From: Trinickia terrae
Lineage (GTDB): Bacteria > Pseudomonadota > Gammaproteobacteria > Burkholderiales > Burkholderiaceae
Reading direction: 5' to 3'
Length of the DNA stretch: 64,000 nucleotides
Assembly (NCBI RefSeq): GCF_005144415.1
Contig: NZ_SWJE01000005.1
Coordinates: 596,134 to 660,133, forward strand
The position numbers were made by a program, and so were the translations under genes. The notes beneath the pieces are model-generated. The model saw only the letters and a program-made list of their open reading frames with translations. It did no database searches and was not told where the DNA came from. Positions 29,962-37,328 of the stretch are shown here, one piece after another; within the stretch, counting starts at the first letter, position 1; each line of letters begins with the position of its first letter.

Positions 29962-30789
29962 TCACTGGGTGTCGTAATCGACGTAACTGGTCTCGCGGCA
30001 GAAACTCACGAGGCGCACACCCGCCTGCCGCGCGATCGCGATCGCCAGCGACGACGGCGCCGAGATCGTCGCCACCATCGGAATGTTCACGCGCGCCGCC
30101 TTGCGCACCAGCTCGTAGCTCGCGCGGCTCGACAGGAACACGAAGCCGTCGGTAGTGTCGGTGCGGTCGAGCACGAGCTGGCCGATGAGCTTGTCGAGCG
30201 CGTTGTGGCGTCCGACGTCCTCGAACGCGTGCCGGATCGCACCTTGCGCGTCGCACCAGGCGGCCGCGTGCAGGCCGCCCGTCAGCCGCGTGAGCGCCTG
30301 GCGGGCGGGCAGCTCGCGGGCGGCCCGCGCGATGGCATCCGGCGCGAGGCGCGCAAGGAAGCCGGTATCGGGCACGCGCTCCGGCGTGAGATCGAGCAAG
30401 TCGATGCTCTCGATGCCGCACACGCCGCAGCCGGTGCGTCCGGCGAGCGCGCGGCGCTTGTCTTTCAGCGCGGCGAACGCCTGCTGCACGACGGTCAGTT
30501 GCACTTCCGCATGCGGGATCTCGCCCGGATGCTGCGTGACCTCGATGTCCTTGATGTCGCTGCCGCGCTCGACGATCCCCTCCGAGACTGCAAACCCGAC
30601 CGCGAACGCTTCGAGATCGCGCGGCGTCGCCATCATGACGGCGTGGGAAATGCCGTTGAAGACGAGCGCGACGGGCCACTCCTGGCCGATCTGGTCGGTG
30701 ACGGATTCGATCTTGCCGGCCCGGTGCCGGCGCACGTTTTGCTCGACGACGCCGGGTTGCTCGGCGGATTCCAATGGGTCCAAGTTCAC
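29962..30789 (-). CDS. fdhD: Formate dehydrogenase accessory sulfurtransferase FdhD
   Basis: 275-residue protein that transfers sulfur from IscS to the molybdenum cofactor of formate dehydrogenase. The catalytic pair is the CGVC motif (about residues 121-124 in TGCGVCGIE), followed by the family blocks DVGRHNALDK and SSRASYELV. The first codon is GTG, but the purine-rich AGGAG abuts it. A TTG two codons later would have better spacing, so the exact start is uncertain. No formate dehydrogenase subunit gene lies in the window. Confidence 0.92.
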   Translation of the reverse strand: MNLDPLESAEQPGVVEQNVRRHRAGKIESVTDQIGQEWPVALVFNGISHAVMMATPRDLEAFAVGFAVSEGIVERGSDIKDIEVTQHPGEIPHAEVQLTVVQQAFAALKDKRRALAGRTGCGVCGIESIDLLDLTPERVPDTGFLARLAPDAIARAARELPARQALTRLTGGLHAAAWCDAQGAIRHAFEDVGRHNALDKLIGQLVLDRTDTTDGFVFLSSRASYELVRKAARVNIPMVATISAPSSLAIAIARQAGVRLVSFCRETSYVDYDTQ

Positions 30790-30893
30790 TCCTCGCGGCG
30801 CGGCGTCCAGCCGCCGGCTGGCTTCGCCCGTTGCGTGTCCGATAAGGTTCTAAAATACCCCAAGCAGGCAACGCGCGCCGCGTGCCGTCTATG

Positions 30894-30971
30894 AGCGCCC
30901 CCAAACCTGTCGCTACGCGTCAGGCCCCCCGAGGGGGGCAAGAAGACTTGGGGCGGCCCGGCGTCTTCTTG
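30894..30971 (+). repeat. Dispersed palindromic repeat, copy 1 (fdhD / nitrate-reductase-associated gene)
   Basis: A 78-bp unit made of three successive hairpins: CCTG...CAGG with an inner CGC/GCG stem, GCCCCCC/GGGGGGC, and CAAGAAGAC/GTCTTCTTG enclosing TTGGGGCGGCCCGGC. It aligns over its full length with the reverse complement of 39361-39439. It ends 14 bases before the downstream ATG. Confidence 0.8.
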
Positions 30972-30985
30972 AAGGAAAAATCGCC

Positions 30986-31462
30986 ATGGGACTGCATGAC
31001 AAGCCACTGCTCTTCGATTTCGAAGTGATTTCCTCCGAAAATCTCACCTTCATGCCGATGTCGGTGCGCTTCAATCTCGACCGCTTCGGCCTGCGCATTT
31101 CGCTCGCGCAATGGCAGATGCTGCCGCTCGAGGACCGCGCGCTGCTCGCGCGTTTCCCAGTCGAAGAGGATGCGGCGATCGAGCCGAACTTCGATCACGC
31201 GCTCTTCGAAATGATGCGCACCCATGCCAACGTCGAGCCCGACTGGTTTTCGCCCGACGGCGAGCCGGCCTGGCGCAATACCCAGGTCGTGCCGGAAGGC
31301 GTGATCCATCAGAGCGGCATCGCCAGTCTGAGCGCGCCGACGCCGGAAAAATGGGCGCAGCTCGATCCGTTCAAGCGGTACGTGCTGACGAAGCTGTCGA
31401 GGAAGCCCGGGGGCAACCACGATTTCATTCCCGCGATGAAGGAGTTCGGGCTCGCGCCGTAG
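30986..31462 (+). CDS. Nitrate reductase associated protein
   Basis: 158 residues resembling the small family annotated as nitrate reductase associated protein, found near narB/nirA-type genes in some bacteria. Conserved features as I recall them: FDFE near the start, RFNLDRFGLRISLAQWQML near residues 28-46, and a C-terminal KRYVLTKLSRK near 133. The function is unknown. No nitrate reductase is present in the window, and the divergent neighbour is the molybdoenzyme factor fdhD, which gives a loose link to molybdenum enzymes. The leader contains repeat copy 1. GAAGGAAAAA precedes the ATG by about six bases. Confidence 0.75.
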   Translation: MGLHDKPLLFDFEVISSENLTFMPMSVRFNLDRFGLRISLAQWQMLPLEDRALLARFPVEEDAAIEPNFDHALFEMMRTHANVEPDWFSPDGEPAWRNTQVVPEGVIHQSGIASLSAPTPEKWAQLDPFKRYVLTKLSRKPGGNHDFIPAMKEFGLAP

Positions 31463-31490: not shown

Positions 31491-31534
31491 GCCGCGCGTG
31501 AGCCGTTCACTCGGTCACACGCGGCGAATTTTTA
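31491..31534 (+). terminator. Terminator after the nitrate-reductase-associated gene
   Basis: GCCGCGCGTGA (31491-31501) pairs with TCACACGCGGC (31515-31525) with a single mismatch, followed by GAATTTTTA. Good form for an intrinsic terminator. Confidence 0.7.
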
Positions 31535-31695
31535 TCCGACTTTCTCTTTTCAGCACCCTTCAATCTTTGCCGGACTCTGCCGATATCCATGAGTTGGCGC
31601 GCAAAGAGCCCGTATTCGTCCGATGAAATGCGAGTGCGGGCAAGCCCAGAACGATAGCCGCGCCTGCCTCCCAGAACGAACGGCGTTCGTAATTC

Positions 31696-34600
31696 ATGAC
31701 CTTTTCCTTCTCGAAGCGGCTGCTGATCAATTTGGCAGTCGTCGCCGCGGCAGTCGGCGCGAATGCGTTTGTCGCTTACACGCAGATCCGCAGTCAGCGC
31801 GCGGCCGACGAGCGCACGATGCGCTCGATGAGCGTCAAGCACGATCTCGAGGCCTATCGCGCGACGCTCGGCGAAGGGCTCGTGGCGCTCGGCAACTTCG
31901 AATCGTCGGGCGTGCTGGTGCCCGACGGCTGGCGCGACAGCGCGCGCACCGCACGCCTCACGGAGCTTGCGGCGTCGCTGCGGTCCCAGCTGGCGGGCGA
32001 TGCCGACACCCGCCAGCCGCTCGATTGGCTGCTTGCGAGCGGGCAGAGCTTCGAGCGCGACGCGCAGGCGGTGCTCGCCGATGCCGCGACGCTGCCGGAG
32101 GCGGCCGCGCGCGCCTGGGCGGCGTCCGCCTACACACGGCTCGGCTCGGAGCTCAACAGTGTCGATACCGCGCTCGCCTTGCTGCGCCAGCGCGAGGACG
32201 AAGCGCTCGATGCGTCGCTCGCCGATTCCGCGCGCTCCACACGGCGCGCGACCTGGGTGCTGATCTTCACGATGATCGTGGGCAGCGGCCTCCTGATCTA
32301 CACCTTCGGCATGCGCGAGAGCGCGGCGCGCGCCAAGATCCGCGTCGCGCGCGCGATGCGCCGCAGCGACGAGCGGTTTCGCGAGCTGTTCGACGCGCAT
32401 CCGGTGCCGATGTGGATCTACGACCGCGAGACATTGCGCTTTCTCGCGATCAACGCGGCGGCGGTCAGGCATTACGGCTATAGCGAAGAAGACTTCCTGG
32501 CGATGACGATCCGCGACATCCGTCCGGCCGACGAGCTCCCGCGCCTCGAATCCTATCTGGCGCGCAGCCACGCGTCGCCGCAGCGCGGCCGCGTGAGCGC
32601 GGGCGTGTGGCGGCACGTGCGCCGCGACGGGACGCTCCTCGCCGCCGACATTTCGCGCCACGCGCTCACCTTCGTGGGGCGGCCGGCGATGTTCGTCCTC
32701 GCCGACGACGTGACCGACCAGATCAACGCCGAAGCGGAGGCGCAGCGCTCGACGCAGATGCTCGAGACGGTGATCGACAACATCCCGCAGCGCATTTCGT
32801 GGAAGGACCGCGAGCTGCGCTACCTGGGCTGCAACATGACGTTCGCGCGCGACGCCGGGCTCGTGTACACCGAGCAGTTGATCGGCAAGAGCGACTTCGA
32901 CTTGCCGTGGAAGGCGCTGGCCGGCGCGCTCTCCCGCGCCGACGAGGAGGTGATCGAGACCGGCGTGCCGAAGATGAACCTGGAGTTCGAGCTGTTGATC
33001 GACGGCGCGCATCGCGCGGCGGTGATGAGCAAGATCCCGCTCACCAACGCCGACGGCGAGGTGATGGGCGTGCTCAGCTCGTACACCGACGTCACCGACC
33101 GCAAGCGCTCCGATCTCGCGCTGCGTCTGCAGAGCCGCGCGCTCGACGCGAGCGTCAACGCCATCCTGATCACCGGCCCGTCCGAGCGCGGCCACCTGAT
33201 CGAATACGTGAACCCGGCGTTCAAGCGCATCACGGGCTACGACCCGGCGGACGTGATCGGCCAGGACTGCCGCTTCCTGCAGCGCGACGACCGCGACCAG
33301 GAAGGCCTCATCGCGATCCGCGAAGGCCTCGCGGCGAACCGCGAGGTGAGCGCCGTGCTGCGCAACTACCGCAAGGACGGCGCGCTGTTCTGGAATCAGC
33401 TCTTCATCGCTCCGGTGCCGAACGCCGACGGCGAGACGACGCACCACATCGGCGTGATCAACGAGGTGACCGACCTGATCCGCTACCAGGAGCAGCTCGA
33501 ATACCAGGCGAACTACGATGGCCTGACGCGCCTGCCGAACCGCAACCTGCTGCGCGAGCGGCTGCAGCAGGCGCTCTCGACGGCGCAGCGGCGCGACAAG
33601 CGCGTGGCCGTGGTGTTCATCGATCTCGACGGCTTCAAGAACGTCAACGACAGCCTGGGCCACAGCGTCGGCGACCGGCTGCTGGCGGTGGTGGCCGAGC
33701 GCCTCGCGAGGAGCGCGCGGGCGAGCGACACCGTCGCGCGCCACGGCGGCGACGAGTTCGTGACGGTGCTGACCGACGTCAACGACGAGCAATCGCTGAT
33801 CGCCTGGATGGAGCGCGTGCGCGCGGCGATCTCCGAGCCGGTGCCGCTCGACGGCACCGAGCTCTACGTCGGCTGCAGCATGGGCGCGAGCCTCTTCCCG
33901 CAGGACGGCGAGGACGCCGAGACGCTGATGAAGAAGGCCGACCTCGCCATGTATCGCGCGAAGGATATGGGCCGCAACACGTTCCAGTTCTATCAGCCGG
34001 AGATGAACACGAGCGTCGGCGCGCGCCTGAGCCTCGAGCGGCGCTTGCGGCGCGCCCTGCGCGACGATGAGTTCCTGCTCCACTACCAGCCGCAGGTCGA
34101 CATCGCGACGGGCAGAATCGTGGGCATGGAGGCGCTCGTGCGCTGGCTCGACCCCGAGGCGGGGCTCGTCCCGCCTTCCGCCTTCATTCCGGTCGCGGAG
34201 GAGAGCGGCCTGATCGGGCCGTTGTCGGAATGGGTGCTGCGCGAGGCCTGCCGGCAGAACAAGGCGTGGCAGGATGCCGGGCTGCCCCCGGCGCGCGTGT
34301 CGGTGAACCTGTCGGCGCGGCAGTTCCAGCAGCGCGACATCGCCAAGCTCGTGATGTCGGTGCTCGAGGAGACGGGCCTCGCGCCCGAGTATCTCGAACT
34401 CGAGCTGACCGAGAGCACGATCATGCGCAACGCCGAGGAGGCCGTCGTGATGCTCAACGAGCTGCACGCGCTCGGCATCAGCATCGCGATCGACGACTTC
34501 GGCACCGGCTACTCGAGCCTCGGCTATCTGAAGCGCTTCCCGGTCGACCGGCTGAAGATCGACCGCTCGTTCGTGTCGGACATCGGCGCATCGGACGACG

Positions 34601-34812
34601 ACGAGACGATCACCTCGGCCATCATCGCGCTTGCGCATTCACTGGAGCTGCAGGTGATCGCGGAAGGCGTCGAGACCTCGTTGCAGCTCGATTTCCTCCG
34701 GGAGCGCTCGTGCCACGAGATGCAGGGCTTCTTCTTCGCGAAGCCGCTGCCGCGCGACGCGATTCCGGGCTTGCTGCGGCAAGGGATGGCGCTGGCCGAG
34801 CCAATGGCCTGA
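31696..34812 (+). CDS. Membrane PAS/LOV-like/GGDEF/EAL cyclic-di-GMP protein
   Basis: 1038 residues. Transmembrane helices at about 8-30 and 190-212 flank a periplasmic sensor region. Three PAS modules follow (about 225-345, 350-465, 475-600), then GGDEF (about 615-775) and EAL (about 790-1030). The cyclase motif GGDEF is intact at 684-688, with an inhibitory-site RxxD (RASD) five residues upstream. EAL is intact at 812-814 with DDFGTGYSSL later, so both synthesis and breakdown of c-di-GMP are possible. The third PAS carries GQDCRFLQ with cysteine 525, asparagines 557 and 567, and isoleucine 588 where LOV domains have glutamine. This makes a flavin-binding light or redox input plausible. It is monocistronic, with a terminator on its 5' side and a hairpin on its 3' side. 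Confidence 0.93.
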   Translation: MTFSFSKRLLINLAVVAAAVGANAFVAYTQIRSQRAADERTMRSMSVKHDLEAYRATLGEGLVALGNFESSGVLVPDGWRDSARTARLTELAASLRSQLAGDADTRQPLDWLLASGQSFERDAQAVLADAATLPEAAARAWAASAYTRLGSELNSVDTALALLRQREDEALDASLADSARSTRRATWVLIFTMIVGSGLLIYTFGMRESAARAKIRVARAMRRSDERFRELFDAHPVPMWIYDRETLRFLAINAAAVRHYGYSEEDFLAMTIRDIRPADELPRLESYLARSHASPQRGRVSAGVWRHVRRDGTLLAADISRHALTFVGRPAMFVLADDVTDQINAEAEAQRSTQMLETVIDNIPQRISWKDRELRYLGCNMTFARDAGLVYTEQLIGKSDFDLPWKALAGALSRADEEVIETGVPKMNLEFELLIDGAHRAAVMSKIPLTNADGEVMGVLSSYTDVTDRKRSDLALRLQSRALDASVNAILITGPSERGHLIEYVNPAFKRITGYDPADVIGQDCRFLQRDDRDQEGLIAIREGLAANREVSAVLRNYRKDGALFWNQLFIAPVPNADGETTHHIGVINEVTDLIRYQEQLEYQANYDGLTRLPNRNLLRERLQQALSTAQRRDKRVAVVFIDLDGFKNVNDSLGHSVGDRLLAVVAERLARSARASDTVARHGGDEFVTVLTDVNDEQSLIAWMERVRAAISEPVPLDGTELYVGCSMGASLFPQDGEDAETLMKKADLAMYRAKDMGRNTFQFYQPEMNTSVGARLSLERRLRRALRDDEFLLHYQPQVDIATGRIVGMEALVRWLDPEAGLVPPSAFIPVAEESGLIGPLSEWVLREACRQNKAWQDAGLPPARVSVNLSARQFQQRDIAKLVMSVLEETGLAPEYLELELTESTIMRNAEEAVVMLNELHALGISIAIDDFGTGYSSLGYLKRFPVDRLKIDRSFVSDIGASDDDETITSAIIALAHSLELQVIAEGVETSLQLDFLRERSCHEMQGFFFAKPLPRDAIPGLLRQGMALAEPMA

Positions 34813-34894: not shown

Positions 34895-35290
34895 TCAGGC
34901 GAAATCGGGCAGCTTGCGCGGACGGCGGTCGAGGTCGGTCGCGACGTAGGTGAGCTCGGCTTCGGTGACCTTCACGGTCTCGTCGGCGAGGCTCATGCGC
35001 TGCGCGAACACCTCGACCGACACCGTCACTGACGTATTGCCCGTCTTCACGATCTCGGCGTAGAAGCTCAGCAGGTCGCCGACGAACACCGGCTGCTTGA
35101 AGACGAACGAGTTGACCGCGACGGTTGCGACGCGGCCGTTGGCGCGCCGGCTCGCCGGAATCGAGCCGGCGATGTCGACTTGCGCCATGATCCAGCCGCC
35201 GAACACATCGCCATGGACGTTCGCGTCCGAAGGCTGCGGCACGACGCGCAGCGCGCACGGTTTTTGCGGAAGCACGGGGGTGGAGGTCAT
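34895..35290 (-). CDS. Acyl-CoA thioesterase (YciA-type hotdog protein)
   Basis: 131-residue single hotdog domain. Family features: DANVHGDVFGGWIMAQVDIAG (about residues 22-42), with the catalytic aspartate region and the central helix, and AVNSFVFKQPVFVGDLL near 57-73. It hydrolyses acyl-CoAs, typically short to medium chains. I start at MTSTPVLPQK; longer in-frame sequence upstream has no family similarity and overlaps the promoter region of the divergent ABC exporter gene. Confidence 0.9.
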   Translation of the reverse strand: MTSTPVLPQKPCALRVVPQPSDANVHGDVFGGWIMAQVDIAGSIPASRRANGRVATVAVNSFVFKQPVFVGDLLSFYAEIVKTGNTSVTVSVEVFAQRMSLADETVKVTEAELTYVATDLDRRPRKLPDFA

Positions 35291-35381
35291 CTTGGTATCC
35301 GTAAATAAAAAGCCGCGGAAAGCGGCGCCAGTCGGCTTCTGAGACAATACGTAGCAGAGCGTGGAAATTGTACGGGAAACC

Positions 35382-37328
35382 ATGCATTCCGACGTTCCAA
35401 CGTTTTCATCCCGCCGCTTTCTTCGCCCCATGCGCCGCTACGCCGCCCCGACCGAACCCGCACCCGTCTCGACCGGGCCGCGCAACGACTGGCAGACGAT
35501 CGTCTCGCTGATGCCGTATCTCGCCACCTACAAATGGCGCGTCGTGCTGGCGCTCACTTGCCTGATCGGCGCGAAGGTCGCGAACCTCGGCGTGCCGATC
35601 GTGATGAAGCGCATCGTCGACGGTCTCGTGCCGGTGCAGCACCTCACCGCGCTCGGCCGCGCGCAGCACGAGCCGGCGATCGTGCTGGCGGGCGGCATCG
35701 GCCTCCTGGTGGTCGCCTATGCGCTCGTGCGGCTGTCGACGTCGATGTTCAACGAGCTGCGCGAAATCCTCTTCGCGAAGGTGACCGAGAGCGCGGTGCG
35801 CCAGCTCGCGCTGAAGGTGTTCCGCCACCTGCATTCGCTCTCGCTGCGCTTTCACCTCGACCGGCAGACGGGCGGCATGTCGCGCGACATCGAGCGCGGC
35901 ACGCGCGGCATCCAGCAGCTCATTTCGTATTCGCTCTACAGCATCCTGCCGACGCTCGTCGAAGTCGGCCTCGTGCTCGGCTTCTTCGTCGTCAAGTACG
36001 ACGCGTGGTATGCGCTCATCACGGGTATCGCGCTCGCCGCGTACATCGTGTTCACGATCAAGGTCACCGAGTGGCGCACGCATTTCCGGCGCACCATGAA
36101 CGAGCTCGATTCGCGCGCGAACTCGCGGGCGATCGACTCGCTGCTCAACTACGAGACGGTCAAGTACTTCGGCAACGAGGAGTGGGAAGCGCGGCGCTAC
36201 GACGAGAACCTGAAGCGCTATCGCGCGGCGGCGATCAAGTCGCAGAACTCGCTGTCGTTCCTGAACTTCGGACAGCAGGCGATCATCGGCTGCGGGCTCG
36301 TGTTCATCCTGTGGCGCGCGACGCAAGGCGTGATGGCGGGGCGCTTGACGCTCGGCGACCTCGTGCTCATCAACACGTTCATGCTGCAGCTCTATATTCC
36401 GCTGAATTTTCTCGGCGTCGTCTACCGCGAGCTCAAGCAGAGCCTGACCGACATGGACCGCATGTTCACCCTGCTCGGCGCGGCGCGCGAAGTGCCGGAC
36501 GCGCCCGGCGCGCCGGCGCTCGCGGTGACGGGCGGCGAGGTGCGCTTCGAGCACGTGGGCTTCGCCTACGAGGCCGAGCGGCAGATTCTCTTCGACGTGA
36601 GCTTCACCATTCCCGCGGGCACGACGACGGCGGTGGTCGGGCACAGCGGCTCCGGCAAGTCGACGCTCGCGCGGCTCCTGTTCCGCTTCTACGATCTCGA
36701 CCGCGCGACGGGCGGGGCGATCACGATCGACGGCCAGGACATCCGCGACGTGACGCAGGAAACGCTGCGCGCGTCGATCGGGATCGTGCCGCAGGATACG
36801 GTGCTCTTCAACGATTCGATCTACTACAACATCGCCTACGGCAGGCCGGCGGCCACCCGCGACGAAGTGATCGCGGCGGCGCGCGCGGCGCACATCCACG
36901 ATTTCATCGAGGGCTTGCCGAAGGGCTATGACACGCCGGTGGGCGAGCGCGGCTTGAAGCTGTCGGGCGGGGAGAAGCAGCGCGTCGCGATCGCGCGGAC
37001 GATCTTGAAGAACCCGCCGATCCTGCTGTTCGACGAGGCGACGTCGGCGCTCGATTCGCGCTCCGAGCGCGCGATCCAGCACGAGCTCGACCAGATCGCG
37101 CGCGAGCGCACCACGCTCGTCATCGCGCACCGGCTGTCGACGGTCGTGCACGCCCAGCAGATCATCGTGATGGACCGCGGCAGGATCGTCGAGCGCGGCA
37201 CGCATGCCGAGCTGCTGCGCGCGGGCGGGCTGTTCGCGCAGATGTGGGCGCTGCAGCAGCAGAAGGCGGCGTCGCAGAGCGAGGCGTCGTCGGACGAGCG
37301 CGCCACCCTGGGGGGCAATGGAGCGTGA
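35382..37328 (+). CDS. Atm1/HMT1-type ABC exporter, fused permease and ATPase
   Basis: A half-transporter of about 648 residues. Six transmembrane helices (about 35-330) precede the ATP-binding domain, with Walker A GHSGSGKST near residue 423, signature LSGGEKQRVA near 527, and Walker B ILLFDEATSALD near 546. The family exports glutathione-linked or sulfur compounds and heavy-metal conjugates (Atm1, NaAtm1). In Rickettsiales and mitochondria it serves Fe-S protein assembly outside the compartment. Possible starts are GTG 35361, ATG 35382 and ATG 35430; the last gives an N-terminus (MRRYAAP) like relatives I recall. Confidence 0.9.
   Translation: MHSDVPTFSSRRFLRPMRRYAAPTEPAPVSTGPRNDWQTIVSLMPYLATYKWRVVLALTCLIGAKVANLGVPIVMKRIVDGLVPVQHLTALGRAQHEPAIVLAGGIGLLVVAYALVRLSTSMFNELREILFAKVTESAVRQLALKVFRHLHSLSLRFHLDRQTGGMSRDIERGTRGIQQLISYSLYSILPTLVEVGLVLGFFVVKYDAWYALITGIALAAYIVFTIKVTEWRTHFRRTMNELDSRANSRAIDSLLNYETVKYFGNEEWEARRYDENLKRYRAAAIKSQNSLSFLNFGQQAIIGCGLVFILWRATQGVMAGRLTLGDLVLINTFMLQLYIPLNFLGVVYRELKQSLTDMDRMFTLLGAAREVPDAPGAPALAVTGGEVRFEHVGFAYEAERQILFDVSFTIPAGTTTAVVGHSGSGKSTLARLLFRFYDLDRATGGAITIDGQDIRDVTQETLRASIGIVPQDTVLFNDSIYYNIAYGRPAATRDEVIAAARAAHIHDFIEGLPKGYDTPVGERGLKLSGGEKQRVAIARTILKNPPILLFDEATSALDSRSERAIQHELDQIARERTTLVIAHRLSTVVHAQQIIVMDRGRIVERGTHAELLRAGGLFAQMWALQQQKAASQSEASSDERATLGGNGA

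Follow-up and report, generated by a model that had tools for sequence, protein, structure and literature searches.

The gene described here lies in a window of 64,000 nucleotides of Trinickia terrae DNA, the whole stretch that was analyzed (contig NZ_SWJE01000005.1, positions 596,134 to 660,133). It is a single open frame on the + strand, as are all its features below, at 31696..34812, and it encodes a membrane-bound PAS-PAS-LOV-GGDEF-EAL protein of 1038 aa in which Pfam found EAL, GGDEF, and three PAS stretches starting at about residues 226, 361, and 489. Pfam and hydropathy together gave the order TM-periplasm-TM-PAS-PAS-LOV-GGDEF-EAL. The two transmembrane segments span residues 9-27 (31720..31776; Kyte-Doolittle peak 2.14) and 188-206 (32257..32313; peak 2.00). 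The approximately 160 residues between them (28-187) presumably form a periplasmic sensor domain, and the predicted topology suggests that the PAS-PAS-LOV-GGDEF-EAL chain after the second segment is cytoplasmic. The first two PAS domains are a PAS_8 stretch at residues 226-278 (32371..32529) and a PAS_4 stretch at residues 361-471 (32776..33108). The third PAS module, which the sequence-only reading had placed at 33127-33480, was confirmed as residues 478-595 of this frame (33127..33480), and it was assigned as a glutamine-less LOV domain (LOV-deltaQ) from PDB matches, NCBIfam, AlphaFold2, Foldseek, and VIA. A long open frame at 31507-34638 also runs across the gene on the reverse strand. A LOV signal was sought in this frame and none was found; we take it to be the usual shadow frame of GC-rich DNA.

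The LOV domain is followed by a 21-residue LOV-GGDEF linker running from (D/E)VT to DGL (residues 590-610; 33463..33525). The Pfam GGDEF domain covers residues 605-761 (33508..33978), with the GGDEF motif at residues 684-688 (33745-33759) and an inhibitory RxxD at residues 675-678 (33718-33729). The Pfam EAL domain covers residues 782-1017 (34039..34746) and has complete catalytic motifs, the EAL motif itself being residues 812-814. Conservation was assessed in an orthologue set of 171 loci, which reduced to 156 distinct sequences from Paraburkholderia, Caballeronia, Pararobbsia, and related genera. Orthologues were 61-92% identical across nearly the whole protein, and the GGDEF, RxxD, EAL, NLSAR, ELTE, DDFGTG, LKID, and AEGVE motifs were present and near-invariant in the 156. 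Judged by these motifs, both catalytic sites look intact, in agreement with what had first been proposed for GGDEF with RxxD and for EAL.

The gene order at the locus is fdhD (opposite strand), a small gene of 158 aa, the LOV gene, a thioesterase (opposite strand), and an ABC transporter. The neighbors were named by eye, the small protein as nitrate-reductase-associated-like and the thioesterase as acyl-CoA-thioesterase-like. The order was whole in 36 of 45 relatives and largely kept in 43, so the locus was probably inherited vertically and not carried by a mobile element. In the window, the conserved neighbor stretches are 29962-31462 and 34895-37328. Synteny with fdhD reaching as far as Massilia was considered and dropped since fdhD was nearby in only three Massilia-type loci and in another orientation.

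The identity of the third PAS module was examined with profiles, PDB sequence matches, and fold comparisons. The YtvA_fam model of NCBIfam (YtvA blue-light family) scored the domain at 115.6 bits and the LOV histidine kinase model at 93.3 bits, compared to 55.7 bits for the generic sensory_box and 13.9 bits for the heme-PAS DosP, which places the LOV profiles ahead by about 60 bits. On the same LOV models, two PAS-like domains encoded elsewhere in the genome scored below 46 bits. The best PDB matches with phmmer were Pseudomonas short LOV proteins (7r5n, E=1.4e-29; 7a6p, E=1.5e-29), and the top matches listed were LOV proteins nearly without exception. An AlphaFold2 model of the domain (mean pLDDT 92.9) gave short LOV proteins as its best Foldseek matches (7a6p, TM 0.89, 1.4 A) and a VIA-align Z of 20.8 to 6gg9. 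The LOV-activated diguanylate cyclase 8c05 matched with Z 19.5, and the 50 best PDB fold matches were LOV proteins or LOV-based designs, so that LOV structures topped both fold searches. The motif GX(N/D)CRFLQ, including the adduct-cysteine position, is present as GQDCRFLQ, and its Asp variant is also found in PF5-LOV. By every available test, all of them on sequences and models, the third PAS module is a LOV domain. Pfam matches no LOV-specific family here and files the domain as PAS_9, which is what an ordinary PAS domain with a LOV motif by chance would predict. Against the lead over generic PAS profiles, the low scores of the other PAS-like domains of the genome, and the LOV matches in PDB sequence and fold, this explanation is so improbable that we regarded chance resemblance as ruled out. 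The lead over generic PAS profiles thus left the original LOV claim standing.

The domain aligned to AsLOV2 without gaps, with Cys525 at Cys450, Asn557 at Asn482, Asn567 at Asn492, and Ile588 at Gln513. The AsLOV2 reference was checked against PDB 2v1a/2v0u and the register was set by the Cys, NY(R/T)K, and GV(I/Q) blocks. The offsets from Cys525 (+32, +42, +63) are the same as in AsLOV2, and the proposed Ile at the Gln513 position was verified at the codon level. Together with the profile, PDB, and fold matches, this register bears out the reading of the module as a LOV-type PAS domain with Cys525, Asn557, and Asn567. The adduct-cysteine position, Cys525 (TGC, 33268..33270), is Cys in 149 of the 156 orthologues and Ser in the other 7, a level of retention at which the LOV assignment stands. 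Asn557 (AAC, 33364..33366) and Asn567 (AAT, 33394..33396) are invariant in all 156, and position 524 is Asp in 155. Pocket residues matching LOV domains are Asn557, Asn567, Arg526, Arg542, and Gln529, with the exceptions of His500 (Asn425) and His584 (Phe509). The Asp at the Asn449 position and the Leu at the Phe494 position both occur in photoactive Pseudomonas LOV domains as well. Ala489, at the AsLOV2 Asn414 position, is a second aliphatic residue at the signaling site besides Ile588. Of 129 orthologous LOV sequences, 128 have this His584 (33445..33447); nearly all other LOV domains sampled have Phe or Tyr instead, and the His marks this Burkholderiaceae family. Compensation by His584 for the loss of the glutamine was considered and disfavored because in known LOV structures the Phe509 position adjoins the dimethylbenzene side of the flavin.

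The signaling glutamine of strand I-beta is absent from the entire orthologue set. Position 588 (ATC, 33457..33459) is Ile in 150 and Val in 6 of the 156 sequences. The codon ATC in 150 of the 156 excludes a sequencing or translation quirk, and the absence of Gln from all 156 excludes a recent, species-specific loss. Gln is already missing from the nearest clades of the LOV tree, and this tree, of few columns and with many open forks, gave a count of at least 19 switches between Gln and non-Gln. Outside the orthologue set, 43 of 64 unique Cys-bearing LOV-like domains from Burkholderiales had no Gln, in a sample biased to relatives of a Gln-less query. When the query was a Gln-bearing LOV domain from Pseudomonas, the 30 Burkholderiales loci that were the top matches from 300 genomes included 24 with the Cys, 14 of which lacked Gln. 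By these counts, Gln-less, Cys-bearing LOV domains are common in Burkholderiales. The T. terrae genome also encodes a LOV-GGDEF-EAL paralogue (L227, G000:C67:168389-171403) that is 45% identical, keeps the Cys, and has Val at the Gln513 position. The only other [ND]CRFL[QH] motif in the genome is in this Gln-less paralogue. BLUF and phytochrome PHY domains were sought in the genome and neither was found. Any LOV-based sensing of blue light in T. terrae would have to manage with no such glutamine. Within the literature collection searched, no paper combined LOV with Paraburkholderia and c-di-GMP.

Loss of this glutamine has been described before. In YF1, PAL, and AsLOV2 it was generally dispensable, and most substitutions at its position left signaling largely intact (Dietler 2022; PMC9098866). 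The 2022 catalogue of natural LOV-deltaQ receptors has about 350 entries, Leu and Ile being the most frequent replacements, and the LOV-GGDEF fragment of a Mesorhizobium loti LOV-deltaQ-GGDEF-EAL protein behaved as a blue-light-repressed cyclase (145 to 30 Miller units) that changed little when Gln was put back (PMC9098866). Residues 478-595 have the LOV-conserved residues and no Gln, which is how LOV-deltaQ is defined. The LOV-deltaQ-GGDEF-EAL protein of the window therefore falls inside this published class, output domains included (PMC9098866). Ile588 is thus, on sequence grounds, a common and already published kind of variation. The sequence-only reading had held that the Ile makes the domain peculiar or probably mute, and this view is not supported, since Gln-less LOV domains are common and most substitutions still signal (PMC9098866).

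The constraint on the adduct cysteine was measured as changes on a tree of 154 rows computed from the protein outside the LOV domain. Cys525 changed three times, always between Cys and Ser, and ranked 68 of the 118 LOV columns, for which the median was 2 and the mean 5.3 changes. Change was less frequent in 67 of the 118 columns, and 38 columns never changed, including Asn557, Asn567, Leu528, and Arg542; Thr493 and Leu569 also had zero changes over the orthologue tree. As judged from these counts, Cys525 is only averagely constrained for this LOV domain and has no special protection. The Cys was lost to Ser in three Burkholderiaceae lineages. In the orthologues with Ser for Cys (L152, L203, L093, L215, L213, L096, and L099), the remaining pocket is complete. 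A related clade, mostly Massilia (L111-L114, L116-L119, L121, L122, L126-L128, L132, L134, L136, and L137), replaces the Cys by Ser or Pro and the Gln by Ile or Leu, yet nearly always keeps the flavin Asn pair. On the LOV tree, no group lies nearer to the orthologues and their paralogues. The pocket of this clade has further changes, and many Cys-less relatives have Arg at the Val463 position. Relatives with Ser and Pro still scored 101-111 bits on the LOV models, so a LOV profile score does not by itself require the Cys. The pattern fits, at the sequence level, a flavin domain in which binding or redox chemistry is essential and adduct formation is optional, an idea already put forward for LOV proteins without the Cys (PMC4682037).

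The linker was compared with those of LOV-activated diguanylate cyclases (LadCs), in which 21 or 35 residues separate D(I/V)(T/S) from DxLT (PMC10396304). The window protein has this spacing, with 21 residues from (D/E)VT to DxL in 156 of 156 orthologues. Since this is the length of the short-linker LadC class, 14 residues (two heptads) shorter than in MsLadC, it is mechanically plausible that a signal passes from LOV to GGDEF through helix register. The precedents for the sign of the output conflict. Light raises the activity of the short-linker LadC class about 15-fold (PMC10396304), but it represses the one LOV-deltaQ-GGDEF that has been tested. When LOV-GGDEF-EAL proteins with linkers of 21 residues were truncated to LOV-GGDEF, light did not affect cyclase activity (PMC10396304), and for RprR, a Ralstonia PAS-LOV-GGDEF-EAL protein, hardly any rprR-dependent effect of blue light was seen in vitro (PMC12802281). 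By analogy, the last two results would count against light control of the window protein. In Synechococcus SL2, blue light brings on EAL (phosphodiesterase) activity.

We think that the domain is probably a LOV-deltaQ photoreceptor in a membrane-anchored, multi-sensor c-di-GMP enzyme, with FMN binding, the Cys525 adduct, signaling, and its direction as predictions. The intact pocket suggests that the domain binds FMN, oxidized in the dark. According to known LOV chemistry, blue light would form a Cys525-FMN C4a adduct and protonate N5. With no Gln513, water and strand shifts could carry this protonation onward, the route suggested for YF1, PAL, and AsLOV2 variants lacking the Gln, and the missing Gln would probably blue-shift the absorption peak by several nm, slow dark recovery, and dampen the output. 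From the C-terminal helix, the signal may travel through the 21-residue linker to GGDEF and then EAL, shifting c-di-GMP turnover, and this output is probably also gated by the periplasmic domain and both upstream PAS domains. The retention of Cys525 by most orthologues, across several genera, argues for a photoreceptor. Its average constraint argues against one, as does the Massilia clade, in which the Asn pair is accompanied by Ser or Pro in place of the Cys.

Light or redox state had been suggested as plausible inputs, and both gain support from this analysis. A redox role is a serious rival because Cys525 changed to Ser three times, the Massilia clade lacks the Cys, and the flavin Asn residues are unchanged. 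Here the bound FMN would report the redox state of the cell or oxygen through its semiquinone or hydroquinone, the Cys would be a dispensable relic, and light would be incidental. We consider this a real but less likely explanation. Apart from the Cys, the pocket of the Ser versions is preserved, the Massilia clade retains the Asn pair with neither Cys nor Gln, and reduction, by light or by chemical means, can trigger signaling in LOV proteins without the Cys (PMC4682037). The gene also adjoins fdhD and the small gene recognized as nitrate-reductase-associated, and this formate dehydrogenase/nitrate-reductase flavor is compatible with a redox role; yet the neighbors are suggestive only, as their order is not operon-like and fdhD is on the other strand. 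The wide retention of the Cys speaks against a relic. Another possible explanation, which appears rather improbable, is that the domain is LOV-derived and mute, with little or no flavin or no signaling, and serves as a structural dimerizer in the PAS-PAS-LOV stack while the signals originate in the periplasmic domain or the other PAS domains. Ile588 and Ala489, aliphatic at the AsLOV2 signaling residues Gln513 and Asn414, and the His for Phe509 in the pocket wall could be explained in this way, and the Gln513-equivalent position is often aliphatic in ordinary PAS domains. A mute spacer, however, would not need the flavin pocket, which is largely invariant; small residues occupy the Asn414 position in working Pseudomonas LOV domains, and most Gln substitutions still signal (PMC9098866).

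Whichever input applies, a Gln-less LOV domain is the rule and not the exception in this widespread membrane-bound c-di-GMP enzyme of Paraburkholderia and Caballeronia, and among close natural proteins that all lack the Gln, the adduct position holds either Cys or Ser. Such native Cys/Ser pairs, as opposed to engineered mutants, make a gradation from LOV photoreceptor to redox flavoprotein testable. Tentatively, the family could be a natural series in which Gln was lost first, in all members, and Cys repeatedly thereafter, while the flavin Asn residues were kept. The doubly deficient members would then be redox or photoreduction c-di-GMP switches, and the window form a photoreceptor/redox intermediate. 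The repeated natural loss of the Cys in a Gln-less background is the part worth pursuing.

Among known systems, M. loti WP_140774521.1 (PMC9098866) shares the adduct Cys, the flavin Asn pair, the missing Gln, and the GGDEF-EAL fusion, but it has Met where the window protein has Ile588, and the latter has two TM segments and two further PAS domains. The short LOV proteins PF5-LOV (7r5n), PpSB2-LOV (7a6p), and PpSB1-LOV are about 40% identical and share the DCRFLQ, NYRKDG, and FWN motifs; in contrast to the window protein, they keep the Gln, have Phe or Tyr for His584, and carry no output domain. The short-linker AoLadC and DpLadC likewise couple LOV directly to GGDEF through 21 residues, MsLadC (8c05) being the long-linker form. 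The LadCs were chosen for characteristic LOV motifs and are without EAL, upstream PAS, and membrane segments, whereas the window protein has additional PAS, TM, and EAL domains and lacks the Gln. RprR (Rsp0254) of Ralstonia pseudosolanacearum is also a membrane-bound multi-PAS LOV-GGDEF-EAL protein, from the same taxonomic order and with the variant motif GRNCRFLH, and it differs in its periplasmic Cache domain (PMC12802281). The LOV-like flavin/redox sensing of BAT-LOV and RmcA PASd is comparable to the Ser and Pro members of the family. BAT keeps the Gln and lacks the Cys, while the window protein keeps the Cys and lacks the Gln.
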